From: Rhizobium favelukesii
Lineage (GTDB): Bacteria > Pseudomonadota > Alphaproteobacteria > Rhizobiales > Rhizobiaceae
Assembly (NCBI RefSeq): GCF_000577275.2
Contig: NZ_HG916854.1
Location: 434,001-498,000 of the forward strand
Direction: 5' to 3'
DNA: 64,000 nt
Position 1 is the first letter of the stretch; the number at the start of each line of letters is the position of its first letter. Below are positions 7,907 to 64,000 of this stretch, in pieces. The position numbers and the translations under genes were made by a program. A model generated the notes under the pieces. It saw nothing but the letters and a program-made list of their open reading frames with translations, was not told where the DNA came from and ran no database searches.

Positions 7907-10900
7907 ATGGATACGCGCTCCCAGTTCGATTCCCGACGCTCCCTCTTGCGGCTGCCGCCGCAGATTTATTACGTGCATCCCTTGATGCTGAAGGGGTGCG
8001 ATGCCTGGAGAGAGGTCTTTGCGCATGCCAAGGATCTTGGTCTCGACACGGTACTCACTGCCCCCGTTTTCGAACGCGGCCAAAATGCTAGTGTCTTTGT
8101 CGTCAGGAATTTCGACCGTCTTGACCCTGAACTGGGACTAGGTGAATCCGTCGAGGACGGGCTCACGGCGTTGGTCCAGGCGGCTCGAGAAAAAGACATC
8201 AAGCTGATGCTCGACCTTGTCGTCGACCGGGCAGCCCTCGATGACAAAGCTGCCGAGCCAATTCCGGCCGATCCGCGGGTGACACCGCATGAAAGCCGCA
8301 GCCGTCGCATCGATTTCATCAGCGAAGCCAACCACGTCGAGGATTGGCGCAATCGCATGATTTGGCTTGCCGGCCTCGGCATCGCAGGCTTCCGCTGCTT
8401 GGGGATCGGGCGCCTGGCGCCGCAAGCATGGTACGACCTTATCGCCGCGACCCGGAAATCGGCTCCGCAAACGACCTTTCTTGCCTGGACGCCAGGGAGC
8501 GCCTTCGAAGACCGCAACGCACTTGAGGGAACCGGATTTGACGGCAGCTTCTCCTCGCTTGCATGGTGGAACCTTGAGGACCGCTGGATCATGGACGAAT
8601 ACCAGATCCAACGGCAGATCGGCTATCAGATTACCTTCCCGGAAGCACCGTTCGGCAAGCGCGTCGCCAACGGTATCGACAGTTGCGAGGTTCTAGAGCG
8701 CAAGGCTGTGCGAGCACTGAAACTGGCTTCCACATTTGCCAGTGGCCTGATGATCCCCATGGGCTTCGAATACGGTGTGGCCACGCCCCTCGATCCGATG
8801 CATGGCGACGCAACCGGCTTGCCTGGACTTCGTGAAGTCGGCTCTTTCGATCTCTCAGGCGACATTCGCACTGTGAGCGCGGGAACCAACAAGACCGCGG
8901 CCGGCTTCGCCCGGCAGCCGCTCAGGTTGGTTTTTGCCAGTCAGGCGCCGACGGTCGCCTTGATGCAGACCGAGCAGGAGGACATCCGCACGTCGCAGAA
9001 GGCGCGCGTCGTCGTCCTCAATCGCGACCTGCGGCGGGTGGCGCATGCGCCATTTAACGCGGTCCGCGAAGCGGCCTCCGCTTTTCTGCCGCTGCAGGCA
9101 CTCGATGCGGAAGACGAAACCTTTACCGCTCAGCTTAAATTGAGGCCGGGTGAACTGCGTCTGTTCGAAGGAACATCATCAATTCCGATCGTTGATGCGG
9201 TCGCGGTACCTCGTGTCGAGGACGCAGCGGCTTCTGCAAGGCTGGCTATTGAGAACATCGCGCCGGCGGTCGATGAGGGGCGTTTCGTCGTCAAGCGCGT
9301 CGTTGGCGAGACGGTGAAAGTCGAAGCAGATATTTTCGGCGATGGCCATGATCCCCTGTCGGCGGCCCTGCTCTGGCGACCGGCCGACGAGGCGAACTGG
9401 AACGAGGTCCCCATGCAGTTGATCGAAAATGATCGGTGGCAGGCGGAATTCACGCCGAAGCGCATGGGGCGGCACGAGTTTTTGGTCGAAGGCTGGCGCA
9501 ATCCATTCGCCATCTTCCGCTACGAGTTCAGCAAGAAGCACGAGGCGCGGGTCGATCTGCGCCTGGAAATCCAGGAGGGCATCAACCACGTGCTCGATGC
9601 GCTCGACAATTCATCCGGTCGGATCAAAAACCGGCTGCGAACGGTCTTCGACAGGCTGACCGAGGTGCAGGACCCCCAGCGGATCGAAATCCTGCTCGCC
9701 GCCGAGACGGCCGAACTAATGGCTAAGGCCGATCGCCGTCCGTATCGGGTTCGCTCGCAGACCATCCCGCTCGATGCGGAACGCGCCGCAGCTGCGTTTG
9801 CGAGCTGGTACCAGATTTTTCCACGCTCCCAGAGCGGCGATCCAAACCGCCACGGCACCTTTGACGATGTCATCAAACGCCTGCCAGCCATCCGCGCGAT
9901 GGGCTTTGACGTGCTCTATTTCACGCCCATCCATCCGATCGGCCAGACGAACCGCAAAGGCAAGAACAACAGTCTCCAGGCCGCGCCAGCAGATCCCGGC
10001 AGCCCCTACGGGATCGGCTCGGAGGCGGGCGGCCACGAAGCGATCCATCCCGAGCTCGGCACGTTCGACGATTTGCGTCGGTTGATCGAAGCAGCTGGCG
10101 ACACAGGTCTCGAAATCGCGCTCGACCTGGCAATCCAGTGCTCGCCCGACCATCCCTGGTTGAGTAAACATCCCGGCTGGTTCGATTGGCGGCCGGATGG
10201 CACGATCCGCTATGCGGAAAATCCGCCGAAGAAATACGAGGACATCGTCAACGTTGATTTCTACGCCCATGACGCGATCCCCGCACTATGGATTGAGTTG
10301 CGCGACATCGTACAAAAATGGGTCGACAACGGTGTCAAGCTCTTCCGCGTCGACAATCCGCACACCAAACCGTTTCCGTTCTGGGAATGGCTAATCGCCG
10401 ATATCCGCTTGCGGCATCCAGAGGTCGTCTTCCTATCGGAGGCCTTCACCAAGCCGAAGGTCATGTATCGGCTCGCCAAGATCGGCTTTTCACAGTCATA
10501 CACCTATTTTACATGGCGCAACGCCAAGTGGGAGCTCGAGCAGTACATGCGCGAGATCACCACGCAGGAACCGAAGGAATTCTTCCGGCCCCACTTTTTT
10601 GTCAACACGCACGACATCAACCCTGATTTCCTGCAGAACGCGCCGCGCCCTGCCTATCTGGTCCGTGCTGCGCTCGCCGCGACACTGTCTGGACTTTGGG
10701 GCGTCTATAATGGTTTTGAGCTTTGCGAAGGCCGGCCCGACGCAAAGCGCAAGGAATATGCCGACTCGGAAAAGTATGAGATTCGCGCCTGGGACTACGA
10801 CCGGCGGGGGAACATCAAATCCGAGATTGCCATGCTCAACCGGATCCGAAACGAGAACCCGGCTCTGCATTCGCATCTCGGCCTTCAGCTTCTCACAGCC

Positions 10901-11161
10901 TGGAACGACAACATCATGTTCTATGAGAAGGCAAGCACGAGCCGTGAGAACGCTCTGCTGATTGCCGTCAACCTCGATCCATACAATGCACATGAAGCCG
11001 ATGTGGAAATTCCACTCTGGTCATGGAACCTGCCGGACGACGGCGCGCTCGACCTCGAGGACTTGATCACCGGTTTGAGATCCACATGGACCGGCAAGAT
11101 CCAGCGCATTCGGCTCGATCCGCATGCAGGCCTGCCGTTCGCGATCTGGCGCGTGAGATAA
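7907..11161 (+). CDS. glgE: Alpha-1,4-glucan:maltose-1-phosphate maltosyltransferase with extra N-terminal amylase-like domain
   Basis: GlgE extends alpha-1,4-glucan with maltosyl units from maltose-1-phosphate. In this 1084-residue protein the C-terminal two thirds (about 430-1084) is GlgE. There is a DUF3416-type N-domain near 450-560, then a GH13 barrel with the nucleophile Asp816 ('FRVDNPHTKP'), acid/base Glu845 ('FLSEAFT') and 'NTHDINPD'. The first ~420 residues are an additional GH13-like barrel that looks dead. The usual 'GFRCD' reads 'GFRCL' (Leu165), and the usual 'AET' acid/base motif reads 'AWT' (Trp194). Actinobacterial GlgE is near 700 residues, so this long form is unusual. It is followed after 15 bases by the TreS-maltokinase gene and then GlgB: one operon for the trehalose-to-glucan route. 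Confidence 0.93.
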   Translation: MDTRSQFDSRRSLLRLPPQIYYVHPLMLKGCDAWREVFAHAKDLGLDTVLTAPVFERGQNASVFVVRNFDRLDPELGLGESVEDGLTALVQAAREKDIKLMLDLVVDRAALDDKAAEPIPADPRVTPHESRSRRIDFISEANHVEDWRNRMIWLAGLGIAGFRCLGIGRLAPQAWYDLIAATRKSAPQTTFLAWTPGSAFEDRNALEGTGFDGSFSSLAWWNLEDRWIMDEYQIQRQIGYQITFPEAPFGKRVANGIDSCEVLERKAVRALKLASTFASGLMIPMGFEYGVATPLDPMHGDATGLPGLREVGSFDLSGDIRTVSAGTNKTAAGFARQPLRLVFASQAPTVALMQTEQEDIRTSQKARVVVLNRDLRRVAHAPFNAVREAASAFLPLQALDAEDETFTAQLKLRPGELRLFEGTSSIPIVDAVAVPRVEDAAASARLAIENIAPAVDEGRFVVKRVVGETVKVEADIFGDGHDPLSAALLWRPADEANWNEVPMQLIENDRWQAEFTPKRMGRHEFLVEGWRNPFAIFRYEFSKKHEARVDLRLEIQEGINHVLDALDNSSGRIKNRLRTVFDRLTEVQDPQRIEILLAAETAELMAKADRRPYRVRSQTIPLDAERAAAAFASWYQIFPRSQSGDPNRHGTFDDVIKRLPAIRAMGFDVLYFTPIHPIGQTNRKGKNNSLQAAPADPGSPYGIGSEAGGHEAIHPELGTFDDLRRLIEAAGDTGLEIALDLAIQCSPDHPWLSKHPGWFDWRPDGTIRYAENPPKKYEDIVNVDFYAHDAIPALWIELRDIVQKWVDNGVKLFRVDNPHTKPFPFWEWLIADIRLRHPEVVFLSEAFTKPKVMYRLAKIGFSQSYTYFTWRNAKWELEQYMREITTQEPKEFFRPHFFVNTHDINPDFLQNAPRPAYLVRAALAATLSGLWGVYNGFELCEGRPDAKRKEYADSEKYEIRAWDYDRRGNIKSEIAMLNRIRNENPALHSHLGLQLLTAWNDNIMFYEKASTSRENALLIAVNLDPYNAHEADVEIPLWSWNLPDDGALDLEDLITGLRSTWTGKIQRIRLDPHAGLPFAIWRVR

Positions 11162-51186: not shown

Positions 51187-51222
51187 GTGGCGGGCCAACC
51201 CCTGTCGAAGCGTGTCACAGAG

Positions 51223-51818
51223 ATGGCTGATTTGCCCGTCCAGCGTCGACTTGCCGCCATCGCTGTCGCCGATGTGGTCGGTTACTCGCGGCTGATGGGT
51301 GCCGACGAGATTGGCACGCTGGCGGCGCTGAAGCAGCGGCGGACGGAGATACTCAACCCCACGGTGCGCGATCATGGCGGGCGCATTGTCAAGGTGATGG
51401 GCGACGGGGTGCTCGTGGAGTTCGCCATTGCGATGAACGCCGTCACCGCGGCGATCGAATTGCAAAGCAAGATGGCGGAGGCCAACGAGCCACTGCCGGA
51501 GAACCGTCGCATCGTGCTGCGTGTCGGCATCAATCCCGGAGACGTCATCGGGGAGGGCAGCGATATCTATGGCGACGGCGTCAACATCGCCGCGCGGCTG
51601 GAAGCAATGGCCGAGCCTGGTGGCGTTTGCATCTCGGGCAAGGTATTCGACGACGTGCGAACCGGGTGACCGAGCGGTTTCGCGACTTGGGCGGAAGACG
51701 CTCAAGAACAGCCAGGCCGGTGCGCGCCTATGCTCTGAACACGGCGCCCGCGCCAGCGATCCCGCCCGTCGGGCACGAAGTGTTTCCCTCGCTCGCCATA
51801 GTTCATCGATCCTGTTAA
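51223..51818 (+). pseudogene. Class III adenylate/guanylate cyclase, truncated and frameshifted
   Basis: Begins 'MADLPVQRRLAAIAVADVVG' and has the cyclase core: metal Asp in 'VADVVGYSRLMGADE', 'VKVMGDGVLVEF' with the second metal Asp, and 'VGINPGDVIGEGSDIYGDGVNIAARLEAMAEPGG' as the dimer-site region. The frame stops at 51669 right after 'GKVFDDVR'. The family's next piece, 'FRDLGGRRSRTARPVRAYAL', follows in another frame. Nothing of the usual C-terminal TPR or effector domain remains. So this is a fragment of a cyclase of the kind that is abundant in rhizobia. Confidence 0.8.
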
Positions 51819-52004: not shown

Positions 52005-53075
52005 TCAGCCGTTCAGGCGTTGCTGTGTCTGTCGGTCGAAGAAGTGAATCTTGGCCGTTTCGAAAGAAAGCTTCACCCGTTGCTCCGGTACCAATTCGAC
52101 CCGTTCGCGCACGACCCATGTCAGCTCCTTGCCTTCGAGCTCCACGGCGACATGGGTTTCCGATCCCGTAGGTTCGACAACCTTGACCACCGCGTCCACG
52201 CCGTTCTCGCCGCCCAAGGCGATATCCTCCGGACGAATACCCAACGTCATTGGTCTCTTTGCCGAGTTGGCAGGAGCCCGCGACAGCTTCAGGCGTGAAC
52301 CGCCCTGCAGCGACAGCGTGGGAGCTCCGGCGTCTTGCAGTGTTCCCTCAAGAAAATTCATTGCGGGAGAGCCCAAGAAACCTGCAACAAAGATGTTGCG
52401 CGGTCTGTCGTAGAGCTCGAGCGGGCTGCCGATCTGCTCGACGCGACCACCGTGGAGCACGACGATTTTGTCAGCCATGGTCATGGCTTCGATCTGGTCA
52501 TGGGTGACGTAGACGATCGTGGTCTTCAGGCGTTGATGCAGTGCTTTGATCTCCGCTCTCATCTTCACGCGCAGTTTTGCGTCCAGATTCGAAAGAGGTT
52601 CGTCAAAGAGAAATACCTTCGGATCTCGAACGATAGCGCGACCCATGGCGACGCGCTGTCGCTGTCCGCCTGACAACTGCGCCGGCTTTCGATCGAGGAG
52701 GGGCTGCAATCCCAGAATTGCTGCAGCCTCACCTACCTTTTGCTCGATTTCCGGCCGTTTGGCGCCAGCGAGCTCAAGAGCAAATCCCATATTCTGGGCG
52801 ACCGTCATTTGCGGATACAATGCATAGTTCTGGAAGACCATCGCGATATCGCGGTCCTTCGGTTGCAGATTGTTCACCACGCGACCGTCGATGCTGATTT
52901 GGCCAGCCGTGATCTCCTCGAGTCCCGCGATCATGCGCAGCAATGTCGACTTGCCGCAGCCAGACGGGCCGACGAGAATGGTAAATTCACCGTCGGCGAT
53001 CTCGACGTCGACACCATGAATTATGTCCACCGCGCCGAAGGATTTCTTGACGTTTTTGATGCTCAAGCCAGACAT
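52005..53075 (-). CDS. Sugar ABC transporter ATP-binding protein (MalK/UgpC type)
   Basis: ATPase of the second importer of the apiose-related operon. The 356-residue protein has Walker A 'VGPSGCGKSTLLRMIAGL', Q-loop 'MVFQNYALYPQMTV', signature 'LSGGQRQRVAMGRAIVRDP', Walker B 'FLFDEPLSNLDAKLR' and 'VTHDQIEAMTMADKIVV'. A C-terminal TOBE-type regulatory region has 'LGIRPEDIAL'. It is the last of eleven co-directional genes and ends the operon. It lies 21 bases after the hydrolase gene. Confidence 0.94.
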   Translation of the reverse strand: MSGLSIKNVKKSFGAVDIIHGVDVEIADGEFTILVGPSGCGKSTLLRMIAGLEEITAGQISIDGRVVNNLQPKDRDIAMVFQNYALYPQMTVAQNMGFALELAGAKRPEIEQKVGEAAAILGLQPLLDRKPAQLSGGQRQRVAMGRAIVRDPKVFLFDEPLSNLDAKLRVKMRAEIKALHQRLKTTIVYVTHDQIEAMTMADKIVVLHGGRVEQIGSPLELYDRPRNIFVAGFLGSPAMNFLEGTLQDAGAPTLSLQGGSRLKLSRAPANSAKRPMTLGIRPEDIALGGENGVDAVVKVVEPTGSETHVAVELEGKELTWVVRERVELVPEQRVKLSFETAKIHFFDRQTQQRLNG

Positions 53076-53096
53076 TTTGGGACCTCTTGATATCCT

Positions 53097-54617
53097 CTAG
53101 CGCTTCCTGCGTACGCGCAGGGCCTGATATGGCTTGCGCGGAATCTTGACGCCGAAGGCAGCGTCCGGCTTGCCACCCCTGACAATCGCGCCATGGCGTG
53201 TGGGATGGGGAACAGGGGCCTCCACTTTCCGAAGCGGTGTGATCGTCATCTCCCATGTGTCGATGAGATCGACCTCATAGTCGTCGCTGTCGACCGGAAG
53301 TCCCGAAGACCAGATGACCGGCTGATGCTCGCCGAAATAGATCAGGCGGAAATCGCCGTCACCGTCACGCACGCCAGACACGCGGGACCAGGGCCACTCG
53401 CCGACCGACCCGAGCGGCTCGAGGCCGTGCGTCACATCCGCTTCCAGAAGATCCCTGAGGAAGCCGATGCGCTTCCATGCTTCGCCATGCAATTCTCCAC
53501 CCTTAGCCCACCAGATCAGGTCGTCTGGATGGGAATAGGTTTCGCCATGACCGGCATAGCCGCCGCGCGCCATCGTGATCCAGAAGCGGTGCACGAGCTC
53601 CTGGGCGCTGAGGTTTCCCCATGACTGCAGGATGTCGCCCTCGTATTCCGGCTCGTCGTTGACAACAGGCTTGCCGTAGGCGTTGCGCCACTCCTGGGTC
53701 CGCTTGACGTCAGGATTTTGAATGCAGGTGTGCGTGACCCATGGCTTGCGATGATCGAAATTCGCAGTCACGTCGCCATTGTGGATGGAACGCAGGTGCT
53801 GGTAAGGGTCGTTTTCTTCCAGGATGTGGAAATAGCGATCCCACTGCGCCATCGGCTTCGTGTCGATGAGGAAATCATACTCGTTGGCAAGCGACCACCA
53901 GACATTGCGGTAGGCGGACAGACGCGCGGCCAGATATTCGACATAGCGGAAATCCTGTTCGGCCGACATATCCGCATAACCCCACCGGTCGTAGGGGTGG
54001 AACATGATGATGTCGGCTTCGATCCCGAGTTCGCAAAGTGTTGCGACCTGTTTGTCAAAATGCTGGAACATGGCGGGATTTGGACGGTCAAAGTCCTCCT
54101 TGCCATCCGCTCCTCGTTCGAAGCAGGCGTGTAGCGGCTCGTTGACGCTGTAGGGATAGTCTTTGGGAAATACGCCCATCCGGATCTTGTTGAAACGCGT
54201 CTTCCCAAGGGTCTCGAGAGTTTGCCTTTGCATCTCCAGCGGCTGGTGCGTCCAGGCATAGCAGGTCGTACCGAATGACAAAAATGGAGTTCCGTCGGCA
54301 TAGGCGAAGTGGAATTTGTTGCGTACCCGGACCGGGCCGTGATTGCCTGTCGATGGTGCCGTTGCGATCAAGGAGCCCGTTTTTCCGGCGAGTGCAGTAG
54401 TTCTGGAACGCGTTACAAACGACCACTCGCCCTCAACGTCGGGCATGAAGCGCATCCGGTACGTCCCGTTTCCATCATAAAAACCGGGGACGCGCACGTC
54501 CCGGCTCTTGTGGGTGAACACGGCATCGAATGCAACGTCGAGATAGGGATTCCCGTCGGAGGGTCCATCAAAGGAGGCCTCGAACACGCCCCATTTTTCG
54601 ACTGTTGCATTAGGCAT
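53097..54617 (-). CDS. Cytoplasmic apiosidase-like glycoside hydrolase (DUF5060 plus DUF4038-type domains)
   Basis: Probable intracellular glycosidase. The 506-residue protein has an N-terminal beta-sandwich of DUF5060 type (about 1-95: 'WGVFEASFDG', 'VPGFYDGNGTYRMRFMPDVEGEWSF'-like). A TIM barrel of the DUF4038/apiosidase-like kind (about 105-410) follows. Candidate acids are Glu in 'SLANEYDF' and in 'VNDEPEYEGD', both typical of this clan. A C-terminal beta domain ends it. No signal peptide, so it acts in the cytoplasm on imported glycosides. The ATG at 54617 with GAGGAG is chosen over an open extension to 54668. It lies between the MalG-type permease and the ATPase gene. GH140 apiosidases belong to this fold; whether it cleaves apiose is an inference from the operon. 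Confidence 0.8.
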   Translation of the reverse strand: MPNATVEKWGVFEASFDGPSDGNPYLDVAFDAVFTHKSRDVRVPGFYDGNGTYRMRFMPDVEGEWSFVTRSRTTALAGKTGSLIATAPSTGNHGPVRVRNKFHFAYADGTPFLSFGTTCYAWTHQPLEMQRQTLETLGKTRFNKIRMGVFPKDYPYSVNEPLHACFERGADGKEDFDRPNPAMFQHFDKQVATLCELGIEADIIMFHPYDRWGYADMSAEQDFRYVEYLAARLSAYRNVWWSLANEYDFLIDTKPMAQWDRYFHILEENDPYQHLRSIHNGDVTANFDHRKPWVTHTCIQNPDVKRTQEWRNAYGKPVVNDEPEYEGDILQSWGNLSAQELVHRFWITMARGGYAGHGETYSHPDDLIWWAKGGELHGEAWKRIGFLRDLLEADVTHGLEPLGSVGEWPWSRVSGVRDGDGDFRLIYFGEHQPVIWSSGLPVDSDDYEVDLIDTWEMTITPLRKVEAPVPHPTRHGAIVRGGKPDAAFGVKIPRKPYQALRVRRKR

Positions 54618-54651
54618 AGAATTCTCTCCTCGTGGAATACTTTTATGGTCT

Positions 54652-55536
54652 CTAGCCCTTGACCGCACCGGAGGTGAGGCCAGACACGAAGTAGCGTTGG
54701 AATATGAGATAGACGATGGTCGCCGGCAGGACGGTCATCACGATGGCCGCATTGAGCTGGCCGTAGTTGCTTGAGAACTGCCCCTGAAACGACATCAGAC
54801 CGAGCGGCAACGTCCACATGTGCTGATCCTGGAGCAGCACCAGCGCCATGGCGAATTCGTTCCAGGTGGAGACGAAGTCGAGAATGAGCAATGCCGCAAG
54901 GACGGGTAGGCACACGGGCAGAAATATCCGTCTGAAGATGGTGAAGTGGTTCGCACCGTCAATGAGTGCCGCTTCAGAAAGCTCTTTGGGAATTCCCTTG
55001 AAGAAGCCGTGCAGGATGAAAACCTGATACGGAACGCCGAAGGCGATGTAGGGGAGAATGACGCCTGGGTAAGTGTCGATGAGGCCGAACGAGTTTACCA
55101 GGGTAAACAGGGGGGCAAGCATCACCTGAAAGGGGATCATCGTGCCGAACACGACAAGAAGCAACAGGGCCTGTGTGACCTTCAGCTTGATCTTGGCAAG
55201 GGCATAGGCGGCCATTGCGGAAAGCAGGAGCCCAAGCGGCACCTTGATGACTGTAATGATGGCGCTGTTGAAGAAGGAGCTTGCGAAGTTGCCGCGGCTC
55301 CATGCGGCGCTGTAGTTTTCGAACGCGAGGTCGGTAGGTGGCACGAAAGCACCCGTGTTCGTCACCGCCGCAGGCGTCTTCAAGGACGTGAACACGATGA
55401 AGACAAATGGCGCCACCCAGACAAGCGCTACGATGATCAGGGTTATCCAGAGACCGATCAAAATCGGATCCCGCTTCATCGACGATGGTTCGACCTGGAG
55501 CCGCAAGAGGGTCGTGTCAGTTGGGACTGCTGTCAC
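54652..55536 (-). CDS. Sugar ABC transporter permease (MalG type)
   Basis: Inner-membrane permease of the second importer. The 294-residue protein has six helices, the first near 28-50 ('GLWITLIIVALVWVAPFVFIV'). The EAA loop reads 'ELSEAALIDGANHFTIFRRIFLPVCLP', the classical MalG signature. It overlaps the MalF-type gene by four bases (ATGA). It lies 34 bases before the hydrolase gene on the same strand. Confidence 0.94.
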   Translation of the reverse strand: MTAVPTDTTLLRLQVEPSSMKRDPILIGLWITLIIVALVWVAPFVFIVFTSLKTPAAVTNTGAFVPPTDLAFENYSAAWSRGNFASSFFNSAIITVIKVPLGLLLSAMAAYALAKIKLKVTQALLLLVVFGTMIPFQVMLAPLFTLVNSFGLIDTYPGVILPYIAFGVPYQVFILHGFFKGIPKELSEAALIDGANHFTIFRRIFLPVCLPVLAALLILDFVSTWNEFAMALVLLQDQHMWTLPLGLMSFQGQFSSNYGQLNAAIVMTVLPATIVYLIFQRYFVSGLTSGAVKG

Positions 55537-56432
55537 GATTCAACCTCCTCGTGCTTTTGGGTCCGTCTGAGATAGGGAATGACCACGGTCATGGTGATCA
55601 GGAGCAGGACGACGGAAATTGCGGCGCCTCGTCCAAAATCGAAGATCTGCATGGCCTGTGTGAACGCCCAGAGTGCCAGCATCTGGGTGGACTGCGCCGG
55701 GCCGCCGCCCGTCAGACCGTAGACGATGTCGAATGCCTTCAACGACGAGATGATGGAAAGAACCAGAACGATCGTCACCGTCGGGCGCAATGCTGGCAAC
55801 GTCACATGCTTGAACACCGCCCAACGACCGGCGCCATCGATGCGTGCGGCCTCGACAAGCGTTTGTGAGACATTTTGCAGGCCTGCCAGGAACAGGACCA
55901 TCGAGAAACCCACCGTCTGCCAGAGATACGCCAGGAAGACGGAATAAAGGGCGATATCCTTGTTGCCCAACCAGTCCTTGATCCAGCCCTGCATGCCCCA
56001 CGACGTGAGCAACTGACTGAAAAGGCCGAAGAACGGATCGTACATCCATTTCCACATGGTGGCGACAGCGATCGGCGCGATGATGACCGGCAGATAAAAG
56101 ATCGCCCTGAGGCTATTGCGGCCAAAGATCTTCTGATTGAGACTGAGGGCCAACAGGAGTCCGACCATTGGCGGGAAGATCAGGCTCATCACCGTCCAGA
56201 TCACAGTATTCCTAAAAGCGACCCAGAAAACCGGATCTCTCGTGAAAATCGCGGTATAGTTTGCAAGCCCGACGAATTGCCGATGCGGATCCAGTCCATT
56301 CCATTTTTGGAAGCTCAGGATGATGACATTGAGCATCGGATAAAGGGCGAACACGGCATAGATTGCCAATGCCGGCACAAGCAGGATGAGCGCTTGCACG
56401 CGCGGATCGTGTGTCGACTGTCGAAGTGACAT
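55533..56432 (-). CDS. Sugar ABC transporter permease (MalF type)
   Basis: Partner of the MalG-type permease. The 299-residue protein has six membrane helices, the first near 14-36 ('ALILLVPALAIYAVFALYPML'). The EAA loop 'LVEAARIDGAGRWAVFKHVTLPALRP' matches the sugar-permease family. A strong AGGAG site precedes the ATG. It lies 90 bases after the binding-protein gene; an 11-base hairpin sits in that gap. Confidence 0.94.
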   Translation of the reverse strand: MSLRQSTHDPRVQALILLVPALAIYAVFALYPMLNVIILSFQKWNGLDPHRQFVGLANYTAIFTRDPVFWVAFRNTVIWTVMSLIFPPMVGLLLALSLNQKIFGRNSLRAIFYLPVIIAPIAVATMWKWMYDPFFGLFSQLLTSWGMQGWIKDWLGNKDIALYSVFLAYLWQTVGFSMVLFLAGLQNVSQTLVEAARIDGAGRWAVFKHVTLPALRPTVTIVLVLSIISSLKAFDIVYGLTGGGPAQSTQMLALWAFTQAMQIFDFGRGAAISVVLLLITMTVVIPYLRRTQKHEEVES

Positions 56433-56476
56433 GCTTTCCTCCTGGCAATGAGAGCCGCTGCCAGCTTATGAAATGG

Positions 56477-56510
56477 GCCAGCCGATCAACACGAGGGTCG
56501 ATCGACTGGC
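56477..56510 (-). promoter_or_regulatory. Intercistronic stem-loop between binding protein and permease genes
   Basis: On the minus strand, GCCAGTCGATC (56510-56500) pairs with GATCGGCTGGC (56487-56477) over 11 pairs including one G-T, with a 12-base loop. No U-run follows. Such hairpins commonly protect the abundant binding-protein mRNA from decay, giving more binding protein than permease. Confidence 0.55.
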
Positions 56511-56522
56511 GCCTGGGAGGAA

Positions 56523-57776
56523 TTAGGTTCGGCTTGCGATGAAGCTCTGCAGCTGCTTGGCCGCGTCAGCAGGTTCAGCGTTGCCGGAGGCGACGTCATT
56601 GATGACGCGGAAGTATTCCGTCGTGACATCAAGCGGGAACGCCTGATCGCCGTTCATGTACACCTTGCCGTACTTTTTGAAGATATCCAGCCATTCTGCC
56701 TCGAGCGGCTTCTGGTTGGTATACTCTACGTTCTTGTTGACGGAGGTCGAACTGAGCTGACCGAGCAGATCCTGCTGCACCTTCGTGGACAGGAAATAGT
56801 CAAGAAACTTCGCCGCCATATCCGGATTCTTGCTCTTGGTACTGATGTAGTTGTACTCGGCGAAGCCGTAGAGACGATCGGTATTGGTCGGGAACGGGAA
56901 AATGCCGTAGTCGTCGAGATTGGCACCGGAGCCGTTAAGCTGGCTGACCAGCCAATCGCCTTCGAGCATCATTGCTGCACGACCTGCCGTGAAGAGGCTG
57001 TAGGACTGTTTGTTGTCGATGCCCATGAACGGCTGCAGCGTGTAGTCCTTCGTCCACTTCGCAAACTCCCCGAACGCTTCCGTCGCGCAGGGTTCCTTCG
57101 TCCAGTCCAGCGTCATCGCTTTCAGGGCGTCATGCTTTTCAGCGCCGCACTTTGTTTCAAGGATAACGTCCATGAGACGCATGACGTGCCAGTTGACCGT
57201 TCCGCCGAACGTGAAGGCAGGAATTCCTGCGGCCTTCAGCTTCTGCGCCGCTGCAACGAGTTCGTCGTAGGTCTTGGGTTCTTCCTTGATGCCAGCCTGG
57301 TCAAAAAGCTTCTTGTTATAGTAGACGGCTTCACCCTTGAACGTGAAGGGAGCGCCATGCTTGCCGCCGGCATATAAGTCGGCGAAAGCCGCTGCAGAGG
57401 GAAGCAGTTCGTCGTTCCATTTGTACTCGGTGTAGTACTTGTCGAGCGGCAGCGACAGACCGGCTTTCACGTATTCGCCGCCAAGGCCAAGGCCCGCCCA
57501 GCTGAAATAGATGTCGGGTCCTTTGTCGGAGCCTGCAGCGACGCGCAAAGCAGTCTTGTGCTCATCGACGGCGCGCTGGACAATCTCGACATGTGTCCCA
57601 GGGTTTGCCGCTTCGAAGTCCGTTGCTACCTTCTTCAGGGCCGTATTTGCAGCATTGTTGTCGAAGTTGAGCGTCCAGAGCGTGATATCTTCGGCAAGAA
57701 CCGGCGTTGCAGACAGGGACGCGATCGCCAGCGCAACGATGCTCGTAGACTTCAACGTCGTGGATAGGGTCAGCAT
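56523..57776 (-). CDS. Sugar ABC transporter substrate-binding protein (family 1, UgpB/MalE-like)
   Basis: Periplasmic receptor of the second importer. The 417-residue precursor starts at 57776 after a strong GAGGAGG site. It has a signal peptide ('MLTLSTTLKSTSIVALAIAS' to about residue 28, cleavage after 'VLA'). SBP_bac_1 features include 'FEAANPGTHVEIVQ', 'KYWNDELLPS'-like region, 'GGTVNWH' and 'AAMMLEGDWLVSQL'. Likely ligand is a disaccharide or glycoside, since the operon has its own cytoplasmic hydrolase. Confidence 0.94.
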   Translation of the reverse strand: MLTLSTTLKSTSIVALAIASLSATPVLAEDITLWTLNFDNNAANTALKKVATDFEAANPGTHVEIVQRAVDEHKTALRVAAGSDKGPDIYFSWAGLGLGGEYVKAGLSLPLDKYYTEYKWNDELLPSAAAFADLYAGGKHGAPFTFKGEAVYYNKKLFDQAGIKEEPKTYDELVAAAQKLKAAGIPAFTFGGTVNWHVMRLMDVILETKCGAEKHDALKAMTLDWTKEPCATEAFGEFAKWTKDYTLQPFMGIDNKQSYSLFTAGRAAMMLEGDWLVSQLNGSGANLDDYGIFPFPTNTDRLYGFAEYNYISTKSKNPDMAAKFLDYFLSTKVQQDLLGQLSSTSVNKNVEYTNQKPLEAEWLDIFKKYGKVYMNGDQAFPLDVTTEYFRVINDVASGNAEPADAAKQLQSFIASRT

Positions 57777-57845
57777 TACGTCCTCCTCTTGTAAAGCCGG
57801 CCCGTTTTCGCAGATAGTCATTGACATGTCAACTGGTATGATGAG

Positions 57846-58493
57846 CTAACCATCATGTTGCTGTGCAAATTTCGATATCGCGGCAATTATGATGACGGCC
57901 GACGCAGCGCCCGGATCGATGTGACCGATCACGCGATGCCCCAATCGCGAAGCGCGCCCCTTGCCTGCTGTCATGCCGCTCGTTGCTTCGCAGCCCTCGT
58001 GTGCCGCCTGCAGGGCAGCGTCGAAACATGCAGCGAGGGGCGTTCCCGACCGCCAGGAATCCTGCGCGGCGTCAGCTGACGGCCTCCAGGCATCAAACAT
58101 TGTCTTTTCTCCGAGCTCTGCCTTGCCGCGCTCCTGGATTCCCTGGGCCATTGCCGCAAAAGCGCGTAGGAAATCGTCATCGGTCAATGCCTGCTTGTCC
58201 TTGGCGGCCGCTCCCGCGCGCATGAAGGCGGTGGCGTACAATGGGCCAGATGAAGCGCCAACTGCATTCAAAAATGCCTTTGCTGCGACGTTGAATACAG
58301 CCGTTGGCGCAGTCTGGGCAGGGTCGAGCTCGCCGACGGCCTTTGCGGCCGCTTGGCATCCTGCGTCCATGGCGAGCCCGTGATCGCCGTCGCCGATGGC
58401 GCCATCCAACTCACAAAGATGGTCGCGTTTCTTTGCGATAGCCTCGGCAATCAGGACAAACAGGCGCTGCAGATCTTTCGTCGTGATCGTCAT
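57846..58493 (-). CDS. dhaL: Dihydroxyacetone kinase-type subunit L
   Basis: ATP- or phosphoryl-donor-binding subunit. The 215-residue DhaL-type protein has the metal-binding aspartates in 'LDGAIGDGDHGLAMD', helical-barrel motifs 'NAVGASSGPLYATAFM' and 'TSGMTAGKGRASRLG', and the C-terminal 'HIDPGAASAVIII'. It lies three bases after dhaK and 69 before the binding protein. In D-apionate pathways a kinase of this family phosphorylates L-erythrulose, which is the likely role here. A PTS-type phosphoryl donor (DhaM) is not seen in the window, so ATP is probable. Confidence 0.88.
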   Translation of the reverse strand: MTITTKDLQRLFVLIAEAIAKKRDHLCELDGAIGDGDHGLAMDAGCQAAAKAVGELDPAQTAPTAVFNVAAKAFLNAVGASSGPLYATAFMRAGAAAKDKQALTDDDFLRAFAAMAQGIQERGKAELGEKTMFDAWRPSADAAQDSWRSGTPLAACFDAALQAAHEGCEATSGMTAGKGRASRLGHRVIGHIDPGAASAVIIIAAISKFAQQHDG

Positions 58494-58496
58494 CGA

Positions 58497-59501
58497 TCAC
58501 CTCGTAAACATGGCGCAATCGCAGGGGTGGTCGATCAATCGCTGTAGATCGTCATCGAGATGCATGACGGTCACCGACGCACCGGCCATTTCAAGCGACG
58601 TGCAGTAATTTCCCACGAGCGACGTATGGACGACGAGTCCGGCATCATCAAGCCGGGACTTCACGCGTCGCATCATGATGTAGAGTTCCATCATCGGCGT
58701 CGAACCGAGCGAGTTGACGAGCACTGCGACACGATCGCCGCGACTTGCCTTCATCTCCCGAAGAATGCTGTCCATCAGTTCGTCGGTCACCTCGTTTGCC
58801 GTTTTCAGCGGCTCGCGAGCCATCCCGGGTTCTCCATGGATTCCCATTCCGATCTCCATCTCGTCTTCGCCAATCAGGAAGTTCGGTTTGAGGGTCTGGG
58901 GCAGCGAACACGGCGAGAGCGCGACACCCATCGTGTAGGTTCGCGAATTGGCATGGCGGGCAGCCCGCTCCACGTCGTCGAAAGAATACAGCAGATCACA
59001 GGCCGCTCCAGCGGCTTTGAAAATGAAAACGTTGCCCGCCACGCCGCGTCGCCTGTGCCTCTGATCGGGAGGCGCGGAGGCGACGTCATCCGTTGTCAGG
59101 ACAGTTCGCGCTTCAATGTCGTCCAAAGCGAGCATTTCAGCGGCCATGTCGAAGTTCATGACGTCGCCGGCATAATTGCCATACATGAACAGAACGCCGG
59201 CACCGCCATCGACAGCCTTGGCACACGCGATAATGGGATCGGGGGGCGGGGAGGCGAATACATTGCCGATCGCGGCAGCGTCTGCGAGCCCCTTGCCAAC
59301 AAAGCCCAGAAACGTTGGCTCGTGGCCAGACCCGCCGCCGATCACCAGCCCGACCTTGCCCTTGCGCGGCCCGTTTTTGGCAATGATCGCGCGCGGCATA
59401 TCGTCGACCGCGTAAAGATGGTTCGGATGCGCCGAAAGCACCCCCTGCAGCATCTCATCGACGGCGTCTGCACCGGAATTGATAAGCTTCTTGGTCTTCA
59501 C
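58497..59501 (-). CDS. dhaK: Dihydroxyacetone kinase-type subunit K
   Basis: Binds the keto-sugar covalently through a His in 'GMGIHGEPGM'. The 334-residue protein also has 'KVGLVIGGGSGHEPTFLGFVG' and 'NYAGDVMNFDMA', and near the end 'TSLEMAGASVTVMHLDDDL', all DhaK hallmarks. The start is a GTG at 59501 with a perfect GGGGAGG site; an open frame to 59642 has no such support. It is followed by dhaL. In this operon the substrate may be L-erythrulose (LerK-like) rather than dihydroxyacetone; that is inference from the ApnL- and ApdG-like neighbours. Confidence 0.9.
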   Translation of the reverse strand: MKTKKLINSGADAVDEMLQGVLSAHPNHLYAVDDMPRAIIAKNGPRKGKVGLVIGGGSGHEPTFLGFVGKGLADAAAIGNVFASPPPDPIIACAKAVDGGAGVLFMYGNYAGDVMNFDMAAEMLALDDIEARTVLTTDDVASAPPDQRHRRRGVAGNVFIFKAAGAACDLLYSFDDVERAARHANSRTYTMGVALSPCSLPQTLKPNFLIGEDEMEIGMGIHGEPGMAREPLKTANEVTDELMDSILREMKASRGDRVAVLVNSLGSTPMMELYIMMRRVKSRLDDAGLVVHTSLVGNYCTSLEMAGASVTVMHLDDDLQRLIDHPCDCAMFTR

Positions 59502-59556
59502 GCCATCCTCCCCAGAACAAGCTTCGTTGGCATAGATGCAATTGGTACCGAGCGGG

Positions 59557-61428
59557 TCAATCCGCCAGTCGCACGACGAGGCTAGCCAGTGGAGCGAGCA
59601 ACAGGTTCGTACCTGAATTCTTTGATGCTGGCTTGCATGCACCGCAGTCGACCGCTTTTTCCTCGCTCGTCAAATTAACGATGCAAAGCTTTTCTCCTGT
59701 GGCATCCCCTGCAACGAAAGCCAGCACCTCGGAGGGGGAGGAGGAGACACATTCCTGCCAGGATGCACCAGCCAATGCAGCCAGTGCCCGTACGGTATTA
59801 AACAGTGGGCGCCGCCCGCCTTCCTCGATCGGTTCTGCCGGACCGGCGATCAAACCAAATGGACCGGTCAATGCAGAAAGTGTCAGGCATTCGAGATCGG
59901 CATCCAGTACCCGTATCGCGTAAGCCAGCGCGAAAACCTCTGCGAAGCGCCCGTTATGGCGCGGGTCGCGGTTGGCCATCGGTACGCGTCCGCCCGAAGG
60001 ATTGTCCATCGTGCGGCTGCCATAAGGGTTCTGCCGCATCGCAATGGTCGACGGGCCGATCCGGTAGGGCTTTGCGTCGTAGATCGCGCGCACGGATCGG
60101 GTTATGAACGGCAAGGCTTCCAATGTCTGCATGACGCTGAGATCGTCTGCTGCGTGGACGATCGGATTGGTGCAGTGGCTGACGAAGTCAAGCTGTCCAT
60201 CGGGAACGCGCTTTCTGTTGAGCTCAGTGAAATAGCTCAGCATGCCGCCACCGATGCGAATGCCTGGAAAGGCTAAGTGGGCTGCAGCGTAGATCTCTTC
60301 GAGAGGCGGGCAATCGGGCCATTTGCTACCGGGCGGCGTCGACTGCCGGTCGATGGCAGGCGAGATCATGATCGCATCCGGCTTGAACTTTGCCAACTGC
60401 ATCTGGTTGGCGATCTCGCCCACCTCGATGGACGGAGACCGCTTGCAGGCAAGTGCTATCTCCAGCGTCGAACGACCGCAATGGGCGGCGGCGATTGCTG
60501 CGAACCGCTTGAGCACGTCGACGCCATGCCCGGCACCAGGATCGAGATGGAAGAGAAGTTCCTGGGGAGCGATCTCCGACAGGACGGATTTTGCCGACAA
60601 GGTCGCGTCAGCGTCTTCGGGTGCAATAATCAGGCCGATCGCCGGCATGGTGCCGCTTCGCGCCCCGGGCTCGAGGTTGATAGCTCCACCCGAGGCCCCA
60701 GCAGAAGGGTGCTCTCGTAAGGGGCTGCGGCTGTCAGTGATGATCAGTGACGTTTTTTGCCGAACGGGCTGGTTGGCGGCGATCTGGTACGGCCACGGAA
60801 GGGCGAGCGGTCTGACGTAGGTCTTGTAGGATGCGTCCGACCAGTTCCTCTGATCCTCCATTTCAAAGATGTCGCCCTCCATCCGGCATTCTGCCTTCAC
60901 GTCAGGCATTACGTCGTGGGTGATGGCGCGCATGTCCTTGAACGGCTGCCAGGGCTCGATCAAATCCGGAAACCGTGTTGCCACGACGGCGCCCTTAACG
61001 TGCTCGACCGTCGCTGGTGCGCCGGCCACTCCGACGATCGGATGCAAAATACAGAAGCCGCAGCGGTTGGTTTCGAAGCCGGTCTTGGCCACGGCTTCGG
61101 CCTCAAAGTCAAGTCGGTCGGGGCTTCCAACGATGCGAACGTCGATGACGAGTGTAGTCTCGTTCGCTCCAGAGCAGCAGGCGCGATAGGTGACCTCGAA
61201 ACGATCCTCATTCTGCTCGATCGTAAGATTGTCGATCTGCGGGCTGTAGGTGCCCCAATCCCGGTCGCGAACAAGGTAAGAAATTGCTCTGAGCACCTCG
61301 GTTCCATTGTAGCGGATGGTGCGCAGGTTGCCATTGGCAAAATCGGCTACCAGTTTTCCGGCACGTAGTCGAACCGGTGGCGTTTCGACGATATGGGTGC
61401 CGTAGAGCTGGAACAGGTCGATCGTCAT
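59557..61428 (-). CDS. apnL: D-apionate lactonase-like protein
   Basis: Resembles ApnL, the enzyme that opens the lactone of D-apionate in bacterial D-apiose catabolism. The 623-residue protein has an N-terminal beta-sandwich (about 1-250: 'LYGTHIVETPPVRLRAGKLV', 'TIRYNGTEVLRAISYLVRDR', 'RCGFCILHPI'), a barrel-like middle ('IGLIIAPEDADATL', 'RIGGGMLSYFTELNRKRVP', 'DFVSHCTNPIVHAADD') and a C-terminal beta domain. No signal peptide. It overlaps the dehydrogenase stop by four bases and lies 55 bases before dhaK. I recognise the overall pattern and the operon rather than proven catalytic residues, so treat the name as probable. Confidence 0.75.
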   Translation of the reverse strand: MTIDLFQLYGTHIVETPPVRLRAGKLVADFANGNLRTIRYNGTEVLRAISYLVRDRDWGTYSPQIDNLTIEQNEDRFEVTYRACCSGANETTLVIDVRIVGSPDRLDFEAEAVAKTGFETNRCGFCILHPIVGVAGAPATVEHVKGAVVATRFPDLIEPWQPFKDMRAITHDVMPDVKAECRMEGDIFEMEDQRNWSDASYKTYVRPLALPWPYQIAANQPVRQKTSLIITDSRSPLREHPSAGASGGAINLEPGARSGTMPAIGLIIAPEDADATLSAKSVLSEIAPQELLFHLDPGAGHGVDVLKRFAAIAAAHCGRSTLEIALACKRSPSIEVGEIANQMQLAKFKPDAIMISPAIDRQSTPPGSKWPDCPPLEEIYAAAHLAFPGIRIGGGMLSYFTELNRKRVPDGQLDFVSHCTNPIVHAADDLSVMQTLEALPFITRSVRAIYDAKPYRIGPSTIAMRQNPYGSRTMDNPSGGRVPMANRDPRHNGRFAEVFALAYAIRVLDADLECLTLSALTGPFGLIAGPAEPIEEGGRRPLFNTVRALAALAGASWQECVSSSPSEVLAFVAGDATGEKLCIVNLTSEEKAVDCGACKPASKNSGTNLLLAPLASLVVRLAD

Positions 61429-62459
61429 CGCAGCATCGCTCCGACGTCGATTGTCTGCCCCTTGGCTGCACTGTCATAGGCGGCCTCGACAAGGGCAAAC
61501 GTCTTCAGATTGTCGGCCCCGGATGTTGAGTGCTCGGCGCCGCGCTTCAACTGATCGACCCAATGCTGCTGGATCGCGTGGACGCTCTCTTGGATGTTGT
61601 GCCATGGCCGCGAGGCCCATGGCAGCAACTTTGGAGATACGTCCGTGGTCGTCGTGCCCTGCGCGTTTGTTACCTGGAGGCCGTAGCCTTGCGTCAGACG
61701 GATGGTGCCCTCGGAGCCATCAAGCTCGATCAATGTCTCCGGGAACGGTTCCTTGGAGAGCTTCGTCGCGTAGCTGACGTCTACCACCGAGGTGGCGCCG
61801 TTTTCGTGGTCAAGGAGAATGGTCGCCACGTCCTCGCCCTTGATCTTCGGGTTGACCCGTTTGGTGCGAGCCGTGAGTGAGGAAACATCGCCAAGGATAT
61901 AGCGGGCGATATCGATCGTATGGATGCCGAGGTCTTCGATGATGAACCGCTCGCCCTCTGCCAGGTACGGCTGACCGGAGAAGACGTCGTAACCCGAACG
62001 GAAGGAAAAACGCCCCCAGAAGGGGGTGCCGATGGCGCCTGCATCCAGCGCCTTTCTGACCGCCTGTATCGGTGTTTGCCAGCGGAAGTTCTCGTGGATC
62101 ATCAACGCTACGCCGGCATGGCGGCACGCCTCGACCATCGCCTTTGCGTCCGATAGCGTCTTGGCGAACGGCTTCTGGCAGATGGCCGCTATGTTGCGCC
62201 TGGCAGCCATTTCCACGAGGGCGCGGTGGCTCTGTGCTGTCGTGGCAATGTCGACGAAATCGAACCAGCCGTCGGCGAACAACGCCTCGGCATCGCTATA
62301 GCGACGATCGATACCGAACTGATCGCCAACAACCTTCAGCCGCTCGGGATCGCGATCGCAGATCGCGACGATCCTGGCGCCTTCGACATCGTTCCAGGCG
62401 TGCATCTGGTTGATCGCAAAGAAGCCGCAACCGATCAATGCACCTTTCAATTCAGTCAT
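61425..62459 (-). CDS. apdG: D-apiose dehydrogenase-like oxidoreductase (Gfo/Idh/MocA family)
   Basis: NAD(P)-dependent sugar dehydrogenase, probably oxidising D-apiose to D-apionolactone. The 344-residue protein starts 'MTELKGALIGCGFFAINQMH' with the Rossmann GxGxxx motif. It has the catalytic Lys in 'ICQKPFAKTL' and the Asp-His pair in 'EDLGIHTIDIARYILG'. 'MIHENFRWQTPI' is a family mark and 'FRSGYDVFSGQPYL' follows. From memory the sequence resembles the characterised ApdG of Rhizobium etli. The ATG at 62459 is preferred; the frame runs up to 62528 inside the permease gene. It overlaps the lactonase gene by four bases, so the two products are made together. Confidence 0.8.
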   Translation of the reverse strand: MTELKGALIGCGFFAINQMHAWNDVEGARIVAICDRDPERLKVVGDQFGIDRRYSDAEALFADGWFDFVDIATTAQSHRALVEMAARRNIAAICQKPFAKTLSDAKAMVEACRHAGVALMIHENFRWQTPIQAVRKALDAGAIGTPFWGRFSFRSGYDVFSGQPYLAEGERFIIEDLGIHTIDIARYILGDVSSLTARTKRVNPKIKGEDVATILLDHENGATSVVDVSYATKLSKEPFPETLIELDGSEGTIRLTQGYGLQVTNAQGTTTTDVSPKLLPWASRPWHNIQESVHAIQQHWVDQLKRGAEHSTSGADNLKTFALVEAAYDSAAKGQTIDVGAMLR

Positions 62460-62460
62460 T

Positions 62461-63525
62461 TCAACCTGCCTTTGCCATCTGCATGAGAGTGACGCGTTGT
62501 TGCAGGCGGCGCTGCGCCTGGTCGACAACCACGGCGATGATGATCACCAATCCCTTGATGACCATCTGCCAGAAGGACGAGACCCCCATCATCACCAATC
62601 CATCCGAGAGAATGCCGATCACGAATGCTCCGATGATCGTGCCGCCGATCGTCCCGCGTCCGCCCGACATCGACGTGCCGCCAAGAACGGCCGCGGCGAT
62701 CGCGTTGAGCTCGAAGCTCTCACCGGTCGCCGGGTGCGAGGCCATCAACTCTGACGAGATGATGACACCGACGATCGCCGCGCAAAGGCCGGAGAACATG
62801 TAGACGAAGATCTTTACCAGGTCGACGCGGATACCCGACATCCGTGCGGCGCGCTCGTTACCGCCGACGGCAAAGATATGACGGCCAATTGGCGTCGAGC
62901 GCGCGACATAGGCGGCGAGCAGCGCAAGTACGATCAGAATCCAGATCGATACCGGCAGGCCGAAAATGCGCCCCGCGCCGAAGAAGTCGAAGCCGGTCGT
63001 CGCATATTCGGGCCGGCCGACAAGATTCGGAAAGGTCTGGCCGTCCGACGAGAGCAGCGCCAGCCCACGTGCGATGTAAAGGGTGCCGAGCGTCGCAATA
63101 AAGGGCGCGACGTTGAGCTTGGTAATCAGCAGACCATTGATGAGGCCGATGAGGAGGCCGATCGAAAGCGTGATGAATACGATCTCGAAGAGGTTGAAAT
63201 AGATGGTGTAGCCGATTGGCAGTTCGATGCCGTAAAGGATCAGACCGCCGGCGACCATGCCGCAAAGCCCGACGATCGATCCGACTGACAGGTCGATGCC
63301 GCCGGTGATGATGACGAAGGTCATGCCCATCGCCAGGAAGGCGTTGAGCGCGACATGCTTCGACATCAGGATCATGTTTGCAGTCGAGGTGAAGTTCGGC
63401 GCGAAGATCGCAAAGAAGATGATAACGGCAAACAGCGCGATGAACGTCCTGAGCTTCATCAGCGTCAGCAGTACAGAACCGTTCGCGCTCGCAGGCGAAG
63501 TATTGGATGAGGTGGCCGCCGTCAT
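62461..63525 (-). CDS. Sugar ABC transporter permease (RbsC type)
   Basis: Inner-membrane permease of a monosaccharide importer. The 354-residue protein has about ten helices. Its hallmark stretches are 'GMTFVIITGGIDLSVGSIVGL', 'INGLLITKLNVAPFIATLGT', 'GRHIFAVGGNERAARMSGI' and 'IAAAVLGGTSMSGGRGTIGG', all typical of the RbsC/XylH family. It overlaps the ATPase gene by four bases at its start, and its stop lies one base before the dehydrogenase start. First complete gene of the operon in this window; the binding protein should lie to the right. The neighbours suggest free D-apiose as substrate. Confidence 0.93.
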   Translation of the reverse strand: MTAATSSNTSPASANGSVLLTLMKLRTFIALFAVIIFFAIFAPNFTSTANMILMSKHVALNAFLAMGMTFVIITGGIDLSVGSIVGLCGMVAGGLILYGIELPIGYTIYFNLFEIVFITLSIGLLIGLINGLLITKLNVAPFIATLGTLYIARGLALLSSDGQTFPNLVGRPEYATTGFDFFGAGRIFGLPVSIWILIVLALLAAYVARSTPIGRHIFAVGGNERAARMSGIRVDLVKIFVYMFSGLCAAIVGVIISSELMASHPATGESFELNAIAAAVLGGTSMSGGRGTIGGTIIGAFVIGILSDGLVMMGVSSFWQMVIKGLVIIIAVVVDQAQRRLQQRVTLMQMAKAG

Positions 63526-64000
63526 GACGCGAGTTTCCCTTGATGTCCGTGTCCCTTGGCCGAAGCCGCGATGATGGCTTCTTCCGTGGCCTCGCTCCGG
63601 TCGAAGACGGCGACCAGCTGGCCGTTGCTTAAGACCGCGATTCGATCGGAAAGCGCCATGACCTCTTCGAGGTCAGACGTCGAAAACAAAATGGCGAGCC
63701 CGTTTGCCGCCAGCCGGCGCATGGTGCGAAAGACATCGGCCTTGGCGCCCACATCGATGCCACGGCTTGGCTCGTCCATCAAAAGCACCTTTGGATTGGT
63801 CATCAGTGCCTTGCCGATGACCACCTTCTGCTGATTGCCGCCCGACATAGAGGTTACTTCGAAATCCGGGTTGGGCGCCTTGATTGAAAGATCGCGGATC
63901 GCATCGCGAATGGCGTTCTTCTCGGCGCTGCCGTCGATATGGAAGAGGCGGGTGAAGCGGCCAAGGCTTGCCAGGGTTAGGTTGGAAGCGATGGAAAGGA
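63522..64000 (-). CDS. Sugar ABC transporter ATP-binding protein (RbsA type), 3' part only
   Basis: C-terminal part of a double ATPase; the frame stays open to the window edge, so the gene continues to the right. Visible are the degenerate second ABC module: 'VTSMSGGNQQKVVIGKAL' (signature), 'VLLMDEPSRGIDVGAKADV' (Walker B with the RbsA-type 'GIDVGAK'), 'GLAILFSTSDLEEVMALSDRIAVL'. The upstream visible part ('NLTLASLGRFTRLFHIDG') also fits RbsA. It overlaps the permease gene by four bases. Confidence 0.9.
   Translation of the reverse strand, partial: LSIASNLTLASLGRFTRLFHIDGSAEKNAIRDAIRDLSIKAPNPDFEVTSMSGGNQQKVVIGKALMTNPKVLLMDEPSRGIDVGAKADVFRTMRRLAANGLAILFSTSDLEEVMALSDRIAVLSNGQLVAVFDRSEATEEAIIAASAKGHGHQGKLAS

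Follow-up and report, generated by a model that had tools for sequence, protein, structure and literature searches.

Apiose occurs in the pectin rhamnogalacturonan II (RG-II) and in many plant flavonoid glycosides. While the steps that burn the sugar are known, no description was found, in the literature searched, of how bound apiose could be freed without a secreted enzyme. This question is raised by a stretch of 64,000 nucleotides from Rhizobium favelukesii (assembly GCF_000577275.2, contig NZ_HG916854.1, positions 434,001 to 498,000 of the forward strand; hereafter the window), which carries at its right end, from position 52005 onwards, an operon that joins genes of apiose breakdown with two ABC importers and a hydrolase, here called HYD. 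We consider it probable that this operon serves the use of D-apiose and of apiosides: both would be imported, HYD would release apiose in the cytoplasm and an oxidative catabolism would follow. Gene order, families, the fold of HYD and its repeated linkage to two apiose routes are read from the sequence, and the pathway chemistry is taken from published work.

An earlier note, written from the window alone, had placed eleven minus-strand genes here, and the open reading frames and family assignments confirm them from 52005 up to the window end, with gaps between neighbours of -4 to 90 bases from RbsA to MalK and with no internal stop in any gene. The note had also described a system that looked complete, which the set within the window by itself is not: the full operon comprises 18 genes, of which seven more, encoding OiaX, OiaK-like, LerI-like, DerI-like and ApnO-like proteins, RbsB and a DUF2291 lipoprotein, lie right of 64000, where a divergent GntR/FCD regulator forms the boundary (Table 1). 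RbsB and an ApnO-like gene had been expected there and were found, while the OiaC-like gene that had likewise been expected was not seen in the operon, the remaining genome not having been searched for it. The gene order is not due to chance, since it is found identically on plasmid pRL12 of R. johnstonii 3841, where RL_RS34825 corresponds to HYD, and since the order ApnL-DhaK-DhaL-MalE is kept in 36 of the 80 HYD loci examined (the best 80 of 98 confirmed loci, from named genomes).

D-apiose is reportedly degraded by an oxidative pathway with a RuBisCO-like protein, ApdG-ApnL-ApnO-OiaK-OiaX. Judged from its sequence, the core of the operon is this published pathway in its OiaK/OiaX (RuBisCO-like) decarboxylation branch, because OiaX and ApnL reach curated models and ApdG and RbsB match solved proteins. 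ApnL, OiaX and DerI score above the cut-offs of their NCBIfam models, those of ApnL and OiaX being equivalogs (Table 1). ApdG aligns over 344 residues with PDB 5uhw, which we take to be the ApdG of Agrobacterium radiobacter K84, a name that the structure table does not give; the next structure reaches 89 bits. The CUT2 set RbsABC includes an RbsB orthologous to the solved proteins 5ibq (597 bits) and 4ry0 (596 bits; next structure 214), 5ibq being listed in the structure table as ribose-binding and presumably an apiose complex. The dehydrogenase and the lactonase did not fall outside the ApdG and ApnL families, and the earlier proposal of a D-apiose operon is borne out, RbsB, ApnO-like, OiaK-like and OiaX genes lying right of 64000. 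Other names are carried by position: the ApnO-like protein reaches no NCBIfam model over cut-off, and the LerI-like protein is best, and over cut-off, as a general triose-phosphate isomerase. This latter match, together with an OiaK-like kinase whose best model (NF042436) stays under its cut-off, might indicate that the substrate of the operon is not apiose but a different branched or four-carbon sugar; in view of the equivalog matches of ApnL and OiaX and of the closeness of ApdG to 5uhw and of RbsB to 5ibq/4ry0, we hold this to be scarcely credible. Compared with the published oxidative pathway, the whole set is present within one operon, ApnO-like and OiaK-like genes included, and the differences are the score of OiaK and the CUT1 importer, HYD and DhaK/DhaL genes joined on here. 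PMC6302742, with reference to Carter et al. (2018), gives 3-oxo-isoapionate 4-phosphate as the compound on which RuBisCO-like proteins from A. radiobacter K84 and from Xanthobacter act. The core pathway is already known and common in Rhizobium: of 37 sampled genomes of the genus (source genome included), 33 have OiaX above its cut-off, and overall 34 of 61 genomes have it. The earlier note had known of no described system of this kind. For the core this is incorrect, the pathway being published and covered by NCBIfam models of its own. For the import-and-hydrolase part, no paper among the matches listed in the open literature searched describes an apioside importer or a link between DUF5060 and apiose.

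In the favoured scheme, the CUT2 importer (RbsABC with the DUF2291 lipoprotein) would take up free apiose and the CUT1 importer (MalEFGK) small apiosides, which HYD would split in the cytoplasm to apiose. ApdG would then convert apiose to apionolactone, ApnL apionolactone to apionate and ApnO apionate to 3-oxo-isoapionate, which OiaK would phosphorylate and OiaX decarboxylate to L-erythrulose 1-phosphate, from which the LerI- and DerI-like isomerases would form D-erythrose 4-phosphate.

The CUT1 importer is represented by an SBP_bac_1 binding protein, two BPD_transp_1 permeases and a MalK-type ATPase in one operon, so that all four parts of the CUT1 oligosaccharide ABC importers (MalEFGK/UgpC) are present with the expected domains. 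Unlike in known CUT1 importers, no equivalog is matched by the binding protein, whose highest NCBIfam score is 65 bits against a cut-off of 299, and the substrate is therefore not fixed by family; its PDB relatives are distant (best 89 bits). MalE, MalF, MalG, HYD and MalK form one cassette, MalF and MalG reaching at least 55% in 72 of the 80 HYD loci. We infer that this importer carries apiosides and that HYD cuts the apiosyl bond, the cleavage taking place in the cytoplasm. HYD was also found in 93 plasmid records, 36 of them typed as conjugative, and the operon thus often resides on mobile or large plasmids.

HYD is composed, according to Pfam, of DUF5060, an apiosidase-like domain (PF13204; 75.2 bits, gathering score 26.5) and DUF5605. 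It matches PDB 4n0r, the Bacteroides vulgatus protein BVU_0362 of unknown function, at 362 bits, and fold comparison gives an apiosidase-like fold. Its N-terminus is without a hydrophobic leader and no signal peptide is visible (hydropathy 0.90, versus 2.14 for MalE and 1.95 for RbsB; highest value among the 120 best homologues 1.45), this call being made with a hydropathy window and not with a dedicated signal-peptide predictor. Sequence searches, including one with a 21-row profile, gave no hit between HYD and the glycoside hydrolase (GH) family GH140 at E values of up to 10, and over the structural alignment HYD shares 16-18% identity with the GH140 apiosidases (BT_1012, PDB 5msy/3kzs; 8t9w). 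Different from these, HYD has the flanking DUF5060 and DUF5605 domains, is predicted to be cytoplasmic and likely uses a Glu-Glu pair, whereas Asp187/Glu284 are proposed for BT_1012 in PMC4032388. The best reading of HYD is that of an apiosidase acting in the cytoplasm and, within the reach of the sequence searches, standing outside GH140. It might instead cut another bond of apiose glycosides, e.g., a beta-glucosidic or beta-mannosidic one, and leave the freeing of apiose to a different enzyme; a GH5 beta-mannanase is indeed the best fold match after 4n0r, and the Pfam Cellulase model is matched at 23.8 bits, barely above its cut-off of 23.5. We regard this as rather unlikely, given the score of PF13204, the apiose genes that recur as catabolic neighbours of HYD, and the window's operon, in which no second glycosidase was found. 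Ten large neighbouring frames in seven other loci (L068, L076, L085, L072, L071, L063, L056) likewise held no further glycosidase. A HYD relative of Croceibacterium (L092, 11905-13491) shows a twin-arginine-like leader near a TonB receptor and is likely a periplasmic version.

Does HYD accompany apiose catabolism beyond this one genome? Two routes were distinguished, with thresholds that were set, like the cut-offs of the Fisher tests below, after the data were seen: route A, the oxidative one (ApdG/ApnL/OiaX), and route B, which proceeds through isomerase, kinase and split transketolase (AptAB/AplK) and was recognised by likeness to the apt cluster of Escherichia coli SE15. PMC13001218 names the SE15 apiose cluster (ApsI, AplK, AptA, AptB); the strains that it reports to grow on apiose do not include SE15 but are other members of E. 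coli and E. fergusonii that carry this cluster. Since FGGY kinase alone cannot separate an apiose kinase from a glycerol kinase (43% identity to SE15 AplK in L034 and L082, and 39% for an ordinary GlpK-like neighbour in L017), route B was scored on the transketolase halves and isomerases. Route A genes adjoin HYD in 48 of the 80 loci, two of these calls being thin (OiaX alone in L015, a partial 38% OiaX in L086), and route B genes in eight. The route B neighbours are 43-48% (AptA-like) and 33-42% (AptB-like) identical to the SE15 proteins, and by Pfam these neighbours comprise transketolase halves, FGGY kinase and isomerase domains. When the apt genes of L034 were searched against E. coli genomes at the nucleotide level, no match was obtained. 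The arrangement varies: Rhizobium loci follow the order of the window, in Mesorhizobium the apiose route lies on the opposite strand, a metagenome-assembled genome (MAG) of the Acidobacteriota has the order ApnO-MalEFG-HYD-MalK-ApdG-ApnL, and Devosia carries two HYD copies with an Opp-like importer. Compared with route B, the window's operon has the same RbsABC and DUF2291 importer and no homologous catabolic enzyme, an AptAB-like set lying elsewhere in the genome, and in other genomes route B neighbours HYD. The DUF2291 lipoprotein, which stands here between RbsB and RbsA, also adjoins apiose-type RbsABC in the route B clusters L034, L036, L072, L076, L082 and SE15 and looks like a component of the apiose importer. 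This gene context supports the earlier suggestion that one of the importers would serve apiosides together with a cytoplasmic hydrolase, and a predicted apioside importer with such a hydrolase is well supported as an extension of the known apiose pathway.

In the remaining 24 of the 80 loci no route gene lies nearby, and on Aureimonas and Martelella plasmids the HYD cassette has no route genes within about 16 kb, only the plasmid surroundings being covered. These loci might speak for a cassette that handles an unrelated glycoside, the apiose genes being mere neighbours. This explanation is, however, very unlikely in our view, as the linkage is seen again and again, with two routes that are non-homologous, alongside importers of other types and across several phyla, and as 20 of those 24 genomes hold route marker genes elsewhere. 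ApnL is over cut-off in 13 of them, and an AptB-like protein of 63-70% is found in six more. The neighbourhood of this protein comprises isomerase, AptAB, kinase and RbsB in two of these six, and isomerase with AptAB in another one (L115-L117); in G308, G311 and G315, a single AptB-like match each is the basis of the route call. Vibrio salinus has an SE15-like cluster elsewhere in its genome (AptA 73%, AptB 68%, AplK 65%). Two MAGs (G310, G314), G319 and G320 are left without a route marker.

The association is also seen when whole genomes are counted. Within the order, 15 of 297 genomes have HYD in its full-length class. Of these, 12 also have ApnL over cut-off or AptB of at least 440 bits, as do 6 of the 282 others (Fisher 1e-14). 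With looser cut-offs the figures become 14 of 15 and 59 of 282 (1e-8), and with ApnL as the sole marker 3 of 15 and 5 of 282 (0.005), relatedness being ignored throughout. Seven cut-off pairs were run, their p values spanning 0.005 (for ApnL alone) to 1e-15, and the HYD set and Fisher table leave out the distant hydrolase of L112 and two other genomes of the 30% class (G130, G225). In the Chloroflexota, HYD was found in 6 of 301 genomes, namely the seed G320 (Thermomicrobiales) and five new ones. Transketolase halves adjoin HYD in G570, G559 and G422, G577 has the isomerase only, G502 has weak matches (38-40%) some 9 kb away, and the seed has none nearby. A quick HYD tree of 48 thinned proteins, 9 labelled A and 15 labelled B, requires a minimum of five switches between the two routes, as counted with some long branches present and with label L101 assigned manually to B, since route B is found there at a distance of about 8-15 kb (L128); the labels A, B and N (none) together are only weakly clustered. 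HYD has therefore remained with apiose through these switches of its partner route. The L112 hydrolase is a distant relative (27-30%, DUF5060 and PF13204) with its own MalEFG set, and it adjoins ApnO-OiaK-OiaX-ApdG-ApnL. It is followed by a nucleoside-hydrolase-like protein (7457-10017), a 68% relative of which adjoins route B genes in the Devosia-type genomes G222 and G291 (L128 at about 11225; L129 at about 11191).

The favoured scheme does not account for the role of DhaK and DhaL. At 36 of the 80 loci these two separate ApnL from MalE, and every one of these 36 bears the title Rhizobium or Rhizobiales bacterium. DhaL exceeds the cut-off of TIGR02365, while DhaK misses that of the dihydroxyacetone kinase model TIGR02363. 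In the scheme of the earlier note, a parallel branch would yield free L-erythrulose, made by a decarboxylase outside the operon and phosphorylated by DhaKL; the conserved position of the two genes, the DhaK score and the LerI- and DerI-like genes in the same operon are consistent with it. Its stated reason fails, however, since the decarboxylation branch is that of OiaK/OiaX, which gives a phosphorylated product directly and makes a DhaK step on free L-erythrulose unnecessary. Moreover, 12 of the 48 route A loci are without DhaKL, and an OiaC-like gene is missing from the operon as read. We give this branch a small chance, and that DhaKL supplies LerI/DerI from free L-erythrulose, or from some related triose or tetrose, is a guess. 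The source genome has three further DhaK homologues, and another DhaK/DhaL set on the same contig (L120, about 177-184 kb) is accompanied by a phosphoenolpyruvate-utilising EI-type protein, so a phosphotransferase-like donor for Dha kinases exists in this genome. A Martelella plasmid (L090) has a long gene for a Dha kinase at 9304-10965, some 2 kb ahead of the HYD cassette and with no apiose genes near.

A second set on the contig of the window, at about 696-705 kb (L118, 2271-10859), comprises RbsABC, a split transketolase with 51-58% to the apt genes of L034, an FGGY kinase and a triose-phosphate isomerase. Its RbsB has 28% to that of Monoglobus, and the set may represent another ketose route or a second apiose route. 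In Lactobacillus jensenii, an excerpt of PMC10711310 describes a cluster with alpha-rhamnosidase, transporters, isomerase and DUF4038/DUF5060 genes, read by its authors as amylase-like; a possible link to apiose is worth a look. An adenylate/guanylate cyclase-domain gene (51187-51669, plus strand) lies directly past the end of the Rhizobium operon without evident link to it.

Table 1. Genes of the operon and its boundary. Families were assigned by Pfam and NCBIfam models, RbsA by sequence identity with its counterpart in the apiose cluster of E. coli SE15 and not by Pfam. Coordinates use likely starts, except that OiaK, DerI and ApnO positions come from a separate reading of open reading frames without start anchoring; those beyond 64000 are window-equivalent, read on in the same genome.
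Gene product	Position	Strand	Location	Evidence
MalK/UgpC-type ATPase, CUT1 importer	52005..53075	-		ABC_tran + OB_MalK + TOBE_2; UgpC model 512 bits, cut-off 432
HYD, putative cytoplasmic apiosidase, 506 aa	53097..54617	-		DUF5060 + apiosidase-like TIM barrel + DUF5605
MalG-type permease, CUT1 importer	54652..55479	-		BPD_transp_1
MalF-type permease, CUT1 importer	55533..56432	-		BPD_transp_1
MalE-type CUT1 solute-binding protein, proposed apioside binder	56523..57776	-		SBP_bac_1; hydrophobic leader
DhaL-like subunit	57846..58493	-		Dak2; TIGR02365 185.2 bits, cut-off 138.3
DhaK-like subunit	58497..59501	-		Dak1 402 bits; TIGR02363 387 bits, under cut-off 406.25
ApnL, D-apionate lactonase	59557..61428	-		NF049900 equivalog 1033.5 bits, cut-off 750
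ApdG, D-apiose dehydrogenase (predicted)	61425..62459	-		PDB 5uhw 638 bits
RbsC-type permease, CUT2 importer (free apiose, predicted)	62461..63525	-		BPD_transp_2; 54% to SE15 RbsC
RbsA-type ATPase, CUT2 importer	63522..65072	-	cut by window edge at 64000	48% to SE15 RbsA
DUF2291 lipoprotein	65069-65734		operon, beyond window	
RbsB	65787-66728		operon, beyond window	
ApnO-like (putative D-apionate oxidoisomerase)	66808-67635		operon, beyond window	PF16896 PGDH_C 239 bits
DerI-like (D-erythrulose-4-phosphate isomerase), RpiB type	67712-68173		operon, beyond window	NF051858 255.4 bits, cut-off 240
LerI-like (putative L-erythrulose-1-phosphate isomerase)	68170-68958		operon, beyond window	triose-phosphate isomerase model 413 bits, cut-off 293
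OiaK-like (putative 3-oxo-isoapionate kinase)	from 68960		operon, beyond window	NF042436 466.2 bits, under cut-off 700
OiaX, 3-oxo-isoapionate-4-phosphate decarboxylase	70303-71556		operon, beyond window	NF042437 782.1 bits, cut-off 700
GntR/FCD regulator	71623-72441	+	divergent, operon boundary	

The import-and-release part recurs across several bacterial groups, and we see an even chance that HYD founds a separate GH family of intracellular apiosidases, always behind an importer and repeatedly paired with two unrelated apiose routes, and that apiosides, not only free apiose, are the real food for root bacteria. DUF5060-labelled relatives of HYD number 7943 at E <= 1e-10 among 8000 scored candidates, and if HYD is an intracellular apiosidase, thousands of DUF5060-labelled proteins would gain a testable function. 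HYD would then be a candidate enzyme for stripping apiose from glycosides, and legume-nodulating rhizobia would gain a route to plant apiosides.

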